From: a virus
IMG/VR virus record: IMGVR_UViG_3300022075_000023
Span: 1-24,155 of that record
Reading direction: 5' to 3' (one strand)
DNA: 24,155 nucleotides
Each line of letters begins with the position of its first letter. Position 1 is the stretch's first letter. A program made the translations under genes and the position numbers. The notes below the pieces were generated by a model that saw only the letters and a program-made list of their open reading frames with translations, ran no database searches and was not told where the DNA came from. Shown here piece after piece: positions 9,758-23,730 of this stretch.

Positions 9758-9787
9758 CGCGATTTGGTTCCAAGCTGCGCGGCGCAG

Positions 9788-9860
9788 CGCCGACCGCAGG
9801 GCTCGAACCTGCTACCTCTGGTTTTGGAGACCAGTGCTCTACCTGTTGAGCTAGATCGAC
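9788..9860 (-). tRNA. tRNA-Trp (CCA anticodon)
   Basis: The 73-nt minus-strand sequence folds as a full cloverleaf: acceptor GTCGATC with GGTCGGC (seven pairs, two of them G-U), D stem GCTC/GAGC, anticodon stem CTGGT/ACCAG with loop CTCCAAA giving anticodon CCA, and T stem GCAGG/CCTGC with loop TTCGAGC. The discriminator base is G. The 3' CCA is not encoded, so the host would add it. A short hairpin (GCTGCG/CGCAGC) follows directly, perhaps for processing. Phage tRNA-Trp genes are known; the benefit here is unknown. Confidence 0.95.
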
Positions 9861-15372: not shown

Positions 15373-15707
15373 GCGACGACCTCCCAGGTGCCTTCCACGA
15401 GCCCGTAGGTGATCTTCCGGATGCGGTACCCGCCCGAGTGGTCGCTGTGCCACACGCCCCGCCACCCGTTGTCCTCCCAGACGGCCTCCAGGGCGGTGTA
15501 GGTGACGCCCCAGATGACCGCCTCGATCCGACCGCCGTCGATACCGCGAATGACCCGACCATGGAACTCCAGCGGGGCGTCCCCATTCTCGATAGCTTTC
15601 CGCAGGGCTTGGCTGTGGTTCATGCGGCGGGCGGACTCGGACTGGGAGAGGCCGGCCAGGTTGCGGGCGTCCTGGATGTTCTTGCTGATGGTGGTGCGGT
15701 CGATCAC
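15369..15707 (-). CDS. HTH-like N-terminus with unknown C-terminal domain
   Basis: The 112-residue protein begins at GTG 15707 with a GGAAGGA site. Residues about 7-40 (ISKNIQDARNLAGLSQSESARRMNHSQALRKAIEN) resemble an XRE-type helix-turn-helix, though the usual spacing is loose. The remainder is strand-rich (GRIEAVIWGVTYTALEAVWEDNGWRGVWHSDHSGG) and unlike known effector domains. It is the first gene after a promoter carrying GTTAC elements (15741-15773), so it is likely under repressor control. Whether it binds DNA is unproven. Confidence 0.6.
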   Translation of the reverse strand: MIDRTTISKNIQDARNLAGLSQSESARRMNHSQALRKAIENGDAPLEFHGRVIRGIDGGRIEAVIWGVTYTALEAVWEDNGWRGVWHSDHSGGYRIRKITYGLVEGTWEVVA

Positions 15708-15740
15708 GGGGGTTCCTTCCTGTGGTGCGTAGCAGACCCC

Positions 15741-15773
15741 AGGTTACTACCTGTTACCGGCAAAAGCAAGCAA
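15741..15773 (-). promoter_or_regulatory. Promoter with GTTAC operator half-sites
   Basis: On the minus strand two overlapping TTGCTT boxes (15764-15769 and 15768-15773) pair with TAACCT (15741-15746, 17-base gap) or TAGTAA (15744-15749, 18-base gap). The spacer contains GGTAACAGG, and a second GTAAC overlaps the -10. This is the same sequence element as at 10272 and 23717. It would serve the gene starting at 15707. Confidence 0.5.
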
Positions 15774-15788
15774 CACCCAGCAACAACC

Positions 15789-16196
15789 TCAGACCCCGGT
15801 GAGCCGCTTCCCCACCTGGGCAGGCTCACGCATCCCCGCCCGCACATCACCCCAGCAGCACCGGCAATGCCGGCCCACCTCCTCCGGGTGATCCTCACAC
15901 GCCGGCTCACCACCCACCGGCGCCGCACCAGGCCCAGGACGCCGCACCGTCACGTCCCAGTGCCGGCCAGGCTCCCCGTAGAACGCCGGGGTGAGCTTCG
16001 CGGGCTTCCCGTCCGGGGTGCGGGCCGTCGCGTACTCGATCAGGGCTTCCACGGCGTGGAGGTAGTTGGTGGCGGGGAAGGTGCCGGAGGCGTGGAAGGC
16101 GTGGAGTTTGGTGTGGAAGCTGGTGGGGTTCCATTCGGGGCGGAGGGTGGTGGCGAGGTTGGTGAGGGTGGTGGCTCGTTGGGGGGTGAGTTCCAT
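15789..16196 (-). CDS. Zinc-containing hypothetical protein next to the origin
   Basis: The 135-residue protein has a helical N-terminus (MELTPQRATTLTNLATTLRPEWNPTSFHTKLHAFHA) and a C-terminal CEDHPEEVGRHCRCCWGD cluster that could bind zinc. The order helix-rich head, linker with WDVTVRRPGPG, then Cys/His cluster recalls small proteins coded beside replication genes in actinophages. It lies just after the candidate origin. The ATG at 16196 has only a weak ribosome site (AAAAGG); the upstream A-rich region may help translation. Function unknown. Confidence 0.6.
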   Translation of the reverse strand: MELTPQRATTLTNLATTLRPEWNPTSFHTKLHAFHASGTFPATNYLHAVEALIEYATARTPDGKPAKLTPAFYGEPGRHWDVTVRRPGPGAAPVGGEPACEDHPEEVGRHCRCCWGDVRAGMREPAQVGKRLTGV

Positions 16197-16206
16197 GGGG
16201 TGGGGC

Positions 16207-16312
16207 CTTTTCGTTTTTGCTGTTTTTGCTGTTTTTGTGTGTTTTTCTCGCGTGTACTGTGGTTAGGTATTTTGCTTGATTTTTTATGGAGATTTCTTTT
16301 AGAAGAGCAAGC
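16207..16312. other. AT-rich stretch with phased A-tracts
   Basis: In a genome near 70 percent G+C this stretch has long runs of T: GTTTTTGCT twice (16213-16221, 16222-16230) then GTTTTTG (16231) and GTTTTTC (16241). Their spacing of 9, 9 and 10 bases suggests intrinsic bending. A further run of six T lies near 16280. It fits a DNA unwinding element and includes promoter-like sequence. No gene was found in it. Confidence 0.6.
16282..16310 (-). promoter_or_regulatory. Candidate promoter for the gene at 16196
   Basis: TTGCTC (16305-16310) and ATAAAA (16282-16287) are 17 bases apart on the minus strand, inside the AT-rich segment. If used, transcripts would cross the A-tract region before reaching 16196, and transcription could help to open the origin. 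AT-richness makes chance matches likely. Confidence 0.35.
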
Positions 16313-16345
16313 AAACCTGTACCGAGCTGGGAGGTGAGGGGCGGC

Positions 16346-16449
16346 CACTCACGTGAGTGAGTGCTTCTTACCTTCTATGTCATCCGGCACTCATCCAGAA
16401 CGTAAGTGCACTCATGAGTGATGGATGAGTGATCTGTAAGTGCACTCAT
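16346..16449. repeat. Iteron cluster (CACTCAT/ATGAGTG), candidate replication origin
   Basis: At least seven copies of CACTCA(T/C) or its complement lie within 104 bases: 16346, 16353, 16388, 16409, 16414, 16425 and 16443. GTAAGTGCACTCAT occurs twice exactly (16402-16415 and 16436-16449). CACTCACGTGAGTG (16346-16359) and CACTCATGAGTG (16409-16420) are perfect palindromes. GGATGAGTG at 16584-16592 inside the adjacent gene is a further copy. The cluster lies between the AT-rich stretch and the replisome-organiser-like gene, the classic layout of an initiator-binding origin. Confidence 0.7.
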
Positions 16450-16464
16450 TCACTTAGATGTGGT

Positions 16465-16917
16465 CTAGAACGGCGGCGGGCCGGGGGAATCCAGGTCCGG
16501 GGTGCCCTGGCAGAGGGGGCAGTCGGGGTTCACGACGCCCTCGTTGACGTGCCACCGCTTGTGGGTTCCGATGATGCCGCCCTTGGATGAGTGCTGACGC
16601 TTCTCCGCGACGGTTGCCCGGACCTTGGCTGCGGCGGTCTGGTGGGCGGTGTAGTCATGGAGGTAGTAGCGGCCGGCGTCTTTGTGCACGAGTCCTGCGG
16701 CGAGGAGTTCCTTGCCGTGTTTGGGGCCGAACATGTTGAGGTCGGCTTCGAGGATGACGCCGTCGCTTTTCTCCTCGGCGGCGAGGGCGAGGAGGGTGAT
16801 GTGGAGGCGGAATGCGCGGTCGGAGAGGCCACGGATTTTCCGGTGGCGGGGGTACTCGATGGTGAGTTTGATCCAGGGGCGGGGGTCCCGCTCGGGCTGG
16901 TCTGTGTCGGGTACCAT
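16465..16917 (-). CDS. Replisome organiser-like / replication initiation protein
   Basis: The 150-residue protein contains WIKLTIEYPRHRKIRGLSDRAFRLHITLLALAAEEKSDGVILEADL (around residues 15-60) followed by GLVHKDAGRYYLHDYTAHQ, the pattern of the N-terminal winged-helix domain in many phage replisome organisers. The end has CPLC and a Pro-rich tail. It is shorter than full organisers, which carry a helicase-loader-binding domain. It starts at ATG 16917 with GGAAGGAG upstream; the in-frame ATG at 16974 lies within a likely promoter and is less likely. Next to an iteron cluster, it is the best candidate for origin-binding protein. No helicase or primase gene is in this window. Confidence 0.6.
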   Translation of the reverse strand: MVPDTDQPERDPRPWIKLTIEYPRHRKIRGLSDRAFRLHITLLALAAEEKSDGVILEADLNMFGPKHGKELLAAGLVHKDAGRYYLHDYTAHQTAAAKVRATVAEKRQHSSKGGIIGTHKRWHVNEGVVNPDCPLCQGTPDLDSPGPPPF

Positions 16918-16989
16918 GGGGGTACCACTCCTTCCGTGTGAGGTGTGGTCGTGGCCCCGGGGTGTTGCCTGCACCGCCGGGGCTTCTAC

Positions 16990-17011
16990 GTTACCGGGTG
17001 TTGCCGGTAAC
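16990..17011 (-). promoter_or_regulatory. Operator-like inverted repeat upstream of the replication gene
   Basis: GTTACCGG (16990-16997) and CCGGTAAC (17004-17011) form a perfect inverted repeat with a 6-base centre. Within it, GTTGCCGGTAAC (17000-17011) is the switch palindrome with one change. It lies 70 bases before the start at 16917. A promoter must be near, but no good -35/-10 pair was identified, so placement relative to RNA polymerase is not known. Confidence 0.55.
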
Positions 17012-17026
17012 AGGTGGTAAGGGTTG

Positions 17027-17057
17027 GGCCCCCGCCCATGTGTGTGGTGCGGGGGCC
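17027..17057 (-). terminator. GC-rich hairpin after the resolvase-like gene
   Basis: GGCCCCCGC (17027-17035) and GCGGGGGCC (17049-17057) form a 9-bp stem with a 13-base loop, starting twelve bases past the stop at 17069. It lacks a T-run. It likely ends the upstream early operon before the operator-bearing promoter region at 16990. Confidence 0.6.
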
Positions 17058-17068
17058 AGTGGGTGGGG

Positions 17069-17413
17069 TCAGTGCTCGGTGGGGTTGGTCATGTCGAGGA
17101 CGGGCCAGTGGCGGGGGGTCGTGTTGCAGACGAGCCGGTAGGTGACCTTCCCGCGGTGGACGATCGCTTCGATGGGGAGCGCCCCGGTGATGTGGGCGGC
17201 GCGCAGGAATCGGGCCCGGTCGGTGGGGCCGAGGTGCTTGGAGCGGGTGCCGACCTGCACGAGGGCGCCCCCGTAGGTTTCGTGCCCCATGAGCAGGTCG
17301 GCGGCGCCCTTGGAGGCGGCGGCGCGCATGATGGGTTCCCAGCCGAGGTCGGTGAGGTGGTCGCGGACAAGGTACTCGCGGGCGCGTCCGGCGGTAGCGG
17401 TGCTCATGGTCAC
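17069..17413 (-). CDS. Holliday-junction-resolvase-like protein, active site altered
   Basis: The 114-residue protein (GTG 17413, or 112 from ATG 17407) has the order seen in Hjc-like phage resolvases: GRAREYLVRDHLTDLGW (Glu13), a Ser-Lys-Gly turn then AADLL (Asp39), ALVQVGTRSKHLGPTDRARFLRAA. The usual E/Q-x-K of this PD-(D/E)xK fold would be Gln53-Val-Gly55, so the catalytic lysine appears replaced by Gly; Lys59 is four residues away. It may be a divergent or inactive member, or a DNA-structure binder. It overlaps the dUTPase stop and ends in front of a hairpin. Confidence 0.6.
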   Translation of the reverse strand: MTMSTATAGRAREYLVRDHLTDLGWEPIMRAAASKGAADLLMGHETYGGALVQVGTRSKHLGPTDRARFLRAAHITGALPIEAIVHRGKVTYRLVCNTTPRHWPVLDMTNPTEH

Positions 17414-23716: not shown

Positions 23717-23730
23717 CGTTACCGGTAACG
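23717..23730. promoter_or_regulatory. Perfect palindromic operator CGTTACCGGTAACG
   Basis: A perfect 14-bp palindrome lies three bases upstream of the cro promoter -35 box. Further half-sites are GGTAAC at 23690-23695, GTAAC near 23735, GTTACC at 23815-23820 and GTTACC at 23839-23844, making a cluster over the whole intergenic region as in CI/Cro switches. The TGTAATTACA palindrome (23777-23786) may be a different site. Confidence 0.7.

Follow-up and report, generated by a model that had tools for sequence, protein, structure and literature searches.

In phage lambda, the iterons of the origin lie inside the gene for the initiator O (PMC7466680), and SPP1 combines the replisome organiser gp38 with repeats and an AT-rich unwinding region, oriL lying in the gene and oriR being intergenic (PMC6316719). 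The 24,155-nucleotide stretch of viral DNA analysed here (the window) includes, at approximately 16207-16460 together with the gene at 16465-16917, what is read from sequence comparison, with a probability of roughly 0.85, as a replication origin module belonging to a tailed phage whose host is a high-GC actinobacterium. Compared by layout, this segment resembles lambda O and ori-lambda in the N-terminal DNA-binding part of the initiator, in the iterons placed beside AT-rich DNA, and in the tie between origin and initiator gene. The in-gene array of lambda is shared by long-type relatives (PMC7466680), whereas in the window the array comes after the stop codon, the iterons point both ways, hairpins follow, and the initiator has no C-terminal domain. 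The likeness to SPP1 consists of a replisome organiser, repeats with an AT-rich region, and the existence of in-gene and intergenic forms (PMC6316719); however, oriR is about 13 kb away, whereas the noncoding origin of the window directly follows the gene. Iteron plasmid origins of the RepA type have tandem iterons in one orientation, unlike the five ATGAGTG copies of the window, which occur in both. Direct homologues are the PHROG 3926/2447 proteins of Arthrobacter phages TripleJ, DrYang and Hestia, most with the same layout of gap and partner gene (Table 1). The records of these actinophage proteins annotate the gene only; no description of an origin was found in the records or literature searched, nor was a paper mapping an origin for these phages found in that literature.

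Table 1. Features of the putative origin module and its surroundings in the window.
Feature	Position	Strand	Basis or remark
Partner gene, 135 aa; three helices and a Cys-rich end	15789-16196	-	a relative follows the gap in most loci of the short type
AT-rich stretch, candidate unwinding region	16207-16330		composition
Diverged copy of element C (TACCTAACCACAGTACACGCGAG)	16245-16271	-	conserved in L091
Hairpin CACTCAC-TCAC-GTGAGTG, probably equivalent to element B in relatives	16346-16363	-	geometry
Purine-rich spacer on the minus strand, where relatives carry strand-biased tandem repeats	16364-16387	-	position and composition only; weak
Core iterons, five ATGAGTG in both orientations	16388-16449		heptamer count and local shuffle
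Single ATGAGTG copies	16388-16394, 16409-16415, 16414-16420, 16425-16431, 16443-16449	-, -, +, +, -	
14-mer GTAAGTGCACTCAT, first copy; two half-sites face each other	16402-16415	+	exact match
14-mer GTAAGTGCACTCAT, second copy	16436-16449	+	exact match
Extra TAAGTG half-site beside the initiator-gene stop codon	16451-16456	-	
Initiator gene, 150 aa; winged-helix DNA-binding domain (predicted), long helix, H-x3-H...C-x2-C	16465-16917	-	PHROG, tblastn, model
In-gene repeat copy GGATGAGTG	16585-16593	+	
CGGTAAC pair upstream of the initiator gene; probable operators rather than origin	16990-17011		

The product of the initiator gene matched PHROG 3926 (E 5e-20) and 2447 (E 5e-10), both replication initiation families, in its N-terminal part only, covering profile positions 2-129 of 312, and the C-terminal domain is absent, as it is from the short-type relatives. 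The gene had been described in the first-pass annotation as replisome-organiser-like, which holds for its homology to replication initiators, but the gene encodes no more of a replisome organiser than its DNA-binding part. Relatives were found by tblastn in 77 phage records (Arthrobacter, Propionibacterium, Mycobacterium, Gordonia, Glutamicibacter), and the H-x3-H...C-x2-C motif was invariant across the aligned short-type relatives. In the structure model (pLDDT 82), a long helix comes after a predicted winged helix. A Foldseek search with this model returned no significant match, and VIA-align matches with Z of 5-6.5 (plasmid Rep, DnaD N-domain, ORC/MCM8 winged helices) were at background level and were discarded. 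The window protein did not match PF09681 (Phage_rep_org_N), which two relatives matched weakly (best E 0.009), and used alone as query it found no close relative in IMG/VR or in species genomes.

The sequence CACTCAY/RTGAGTG occurs ten times in the whole window. Eight copies lie within 16346-16449, so the cluster reported previously over these 104 bases is real although its count of seven was one short; the further copy reported within the gene is indeed present at 16587-16593, and the tenth is distant. The two 14-base copies noted before are exact, as are both palindromes, CACTCACGTGAGTG at 16346-16359 and CACTCATGAGTG at 16409-16420. Five exact ATGAGTG copies fall within 62 bases, a number reached in none of 2000 local dinucleotide shuffles, and the eight copies of the hexamer CACTCA compare with a maximum of five in 2000 such trials. 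When whole-window shuffles were scored for any heptamer, clusters of at least five appeared in 64 of 100 and did not set ATGAGTG apart; this comparison is uninformative because GC-rich heptamers cluster by chance in a 70% GC sequence. With the half-site widened to TRAGTG, 11 of the 15 copies in the window fall in 16346-16456. The 19-base iteron string of the window was absent throughout IMG/VR.

Three of the eight copies belong to the hairpin at 16346-16363, which has a 7-bp stem and a 4-nt loop and shares its 7+4+7 geometry and AC/GT closing pairs with GACCTAC-TTAC-GTAGGTC and GTCTCAC-CACC-GTGAGAC of relatives. Owing to this agreement, element B is probably a better reading of the segment than iterons, and the palindrome at 16346-16359 would then be part of a separate hairpin element, although a perfect hairpin B is missing from some relatives. 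Some relatives have a distinct element of this geometry, so the three copies probably do not count among the iterons proper, which would consist of the five ATGAGTG copies (16388-16449) together with three TAAGTG half-sites and the in-gene copy. The initiator may bind hairpin B as well, since its arms contain TGAGTG.

The AT-rich stretch reported earlier was recovered, with 62-67% AT in 60-base windows at 16211-16330 as against 30% across the whole window; judged by composition, it is a candidate unwinding region. The entire gap has about 54% AT, and the gap was AT-richer than its own locus in 35 of 37 lineages. Positions 16250-16314 are conserved with relative L091 (79% over 67 bases). Hairpin C is represented in the window by a diverged copy only. 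Among relatives, its left and right arms paired better within a locus than when mixed (permutation P 5e-5), this arm permutation having replaced a MAFFT alignment, which aligned the arms poorly; 7 of 19 arm classes had no clear stem.

Relatives were collected from phage records, from 63 IMG/VR loci and from 13 loci in species genomes. Initiators of the short type, of about 120-176 aa, form a set of 56 loci from Arthrobacter, Glutamicibacter and Propionibacterium phages and IMG/VR, in which a noncoding gap, mostly of 160-320 nt, lies directly 3' of the gene; the 89-nt gap listed for PrincessTrina is an artefact of an ORF running through the repeats. Most gaps hold visible, lineage-specific repeats in a common order: iterons, often with one palindromic pair (TAAGCAGGTGCTTA, TAGCACCTGCTA, GGCAATTGCC), then strand-biased tandem repeats (ACCATTA, ACCAAC), then element B, and then AT-rich DNA with element C. 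The first-pass annotation had named the lack of repeats in relatives that keep the gene as evidence against an origin; for most relatives the outcome favours an origin, since repeats stand at the same place, but their sequence is lineage-specific, and at some loci the degeneracy of the repeats keeps them within the range of shuffled sequence. A single-hexamer test at 0.01 was passed by 23 of 57 loci, the others having visible but degenerate repeats. The closest relative of the module, L091 (NZ_MQMF01000012.1), lies on a 10.5-kb contig labelled Fictibacillus arsenicus, whose high GC content (68%) suggests an actinobacterial phage contaminating that assembly.

A second arrangement was found in long initiators (236-329 aa). 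In most of those examined, the linker that joins the DNA-binding part to the C-terminal part contains iterons and then tandem repeats, which appear in the protein as DTDTDT or ETETET. Many have next, still in the linker, a hairpin centred on CTAAAG, whose arms vary by lineage yet pair (CTCTCTACC, ACACCACC, GAAGTACC, GAAGAAGC, ACAGAAGC). This in-gene placement is that of lambda O (PMC7466680) and SPP1 oriL (PMC6316719). The window-type origin is noncoding because the stop codon precedes the array; one origin architecture thus exists both in-gene and as noncoding DNA. In the initiator genes of L049, L056 and L062-L078, the DTDTDT/ETETET protein tracts coincide with the DNA tandem repeats of the in-gene origin, and the protein tract may be no more than a side effect of what the DNA does.

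Iteron k-mer similarity followed initiator identity across 37 lineages, defined by initiators less than 90% identical (Spearman Mantel r 0.51, P 0.0005), and the partial Mantel value with downstream-gap similarity controlled was 0.48 (P 0.0005); kinship among the phages inflates this correlation, and iteron zones were cut at fixed distances, with rough repeat alignments. A natural exchange was seen in the Propionibacterium phages Doucette and Anatole, where flanks on both sides are 92-93% identical and the initiator (23% identical) and the iterons have been exchanged together as a cassette, with the right junction at the TTACGTAAGTG element. The paper on these genomes does not discuss the origin. 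The window and L091 present a similar pattern, as judged from their alignment: DNA similarity extends up to about 16621 and resumes from 16314, with none across the iterons. Initiator and repeats therefore appear to change together, in lock-and-key fashion. The initiator-iteron origin layout suggested by the first-pass annotation is thus supported by gene homology and the conserved position of the repeats in relatives, and further by co-variation, the cassette swap and the element order of the in-gene version.

The repeats could instead form an operator array that serves a phage regulator, perhaps the product of 16465-16917 itself, in controlling downstream transcription. That the gap precedes the partner gene, that dyad repeats are typical of operators and that the protein is a predicted winged helix would all fit, but long-type relatives carry the same elements within coding sequence, the gene family is annotated as replication initiation, and likely repressor sites are marked by another motif, CGGTAAC. 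No sigma-70-like promoter was found in 15700-17100 either, though actinobacterial promoters may escape such a search, and overall this explanation is considered improbable. It is still harder to regard the conserved hairpins as an RNA leader or attenuator of the partner gene, with the repeats being secondary. Hairpin C does lie directly before that gene and its arms co-vary, but only this hairpin would be accounted for, motif C is also found within an initiator ORF (L074) and before unrelated genes (L040, L043), and the co-variation of iterons and initiator would be left unexplained. Equally slight is the chance of a packaging (pac/cos) or recombination site, for which terminase-like ORFs, read from ORF sequences, lie a few kb off; the repeats are linked to the initiator gene, and the site sequence follows the initiator in swaps. 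Each of the three explains parts of the data, yet none accounts for the co-variation, for the swap or for the in-gene version.

Under the preferred origin reading, the winged-helix initiator would bind ATGAGTG/TAAGTG half-sites cooperatively, the strand-biased and AT-rich DNA beside the iterons would open, and loading of the replicative helicase would be assisted by a further factor, perhaps the partner gene product, after which host enzymes would copy the phage genome. Several observations count against an origin: only 23 of 57 relatives pass the single-hexamer test, the iterons are in mixed orientation, the initiator has no C-terminal domain, the part that in longer homologues would contact the helicase machinery, and neither a helicase nor a known loader could be recognised in the 24-kb fragment. 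In favour, genes annotated as helicase loader or DnaB adjoin some of the long initiator homologues. The partner protein (model pLDDT 90) had no family match, and a fold search gave no PDB match and no significant viral match, so that a role as helicase loader, like that of SPP1 gp39, stays a guess. Other members of its family match PHROG 16038, which carries no function, and, outside the Klausavirus group, most loci have a relative of the gene after the gap.

More speculatively, and with limited confidence, the module might represent a widespread type of actinophage origin organised as an exchangeable cassette. Its components would be an initiator limited to DNA binding, the iterons cognate to it, tandem repeats with a strand bias, and one or two hairpins, with one branch carrying these elements in coding sequence and the other in noncoding DNA. 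The hairpin arms differ yet still pair, and the loops or centres are conserved (TYAC, CTAAAG, TCACCTAAGTAACGCG); such hairpins might then function within the origin as single-stranded DNA, for example in helicase loading or priming, a part that is absent from the lambda and SPP1 schemes. The comparison predicts where the origin lies in dozens of sequenced phages of Arthrobacter, Glutamicibacter and Propionibacterium, the Doucette/Anatole swap makes initiator-iteron specificity directly testable, and the module could be a source of small replicons for use in actinobacteria. Two circular actinobacterial 'plasmids' of ~40 kb, from Propionimicrobium (L086) and Amycolatopsis (L087), include an initiator homologue among phage genes and are possible phage-plasmids; being prophage-like circular elements, they were set aside as proof of an origin.

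The motif CGGTAAC has five copies in the window, found only at three intergenic spots (15753-15759, 16990-17011 and 23718-23729) that include a divergent regulator promoter (GTTACCGGTAAC), and these sites are candidate repressor operators. A tRNA-Trp gene (CCA anticodon) lies at 9787-9860 on the minus strand, directly upstream of a terminase-like ORF, and an Rfam search of 15 loci gave a tRNA as the sole match.
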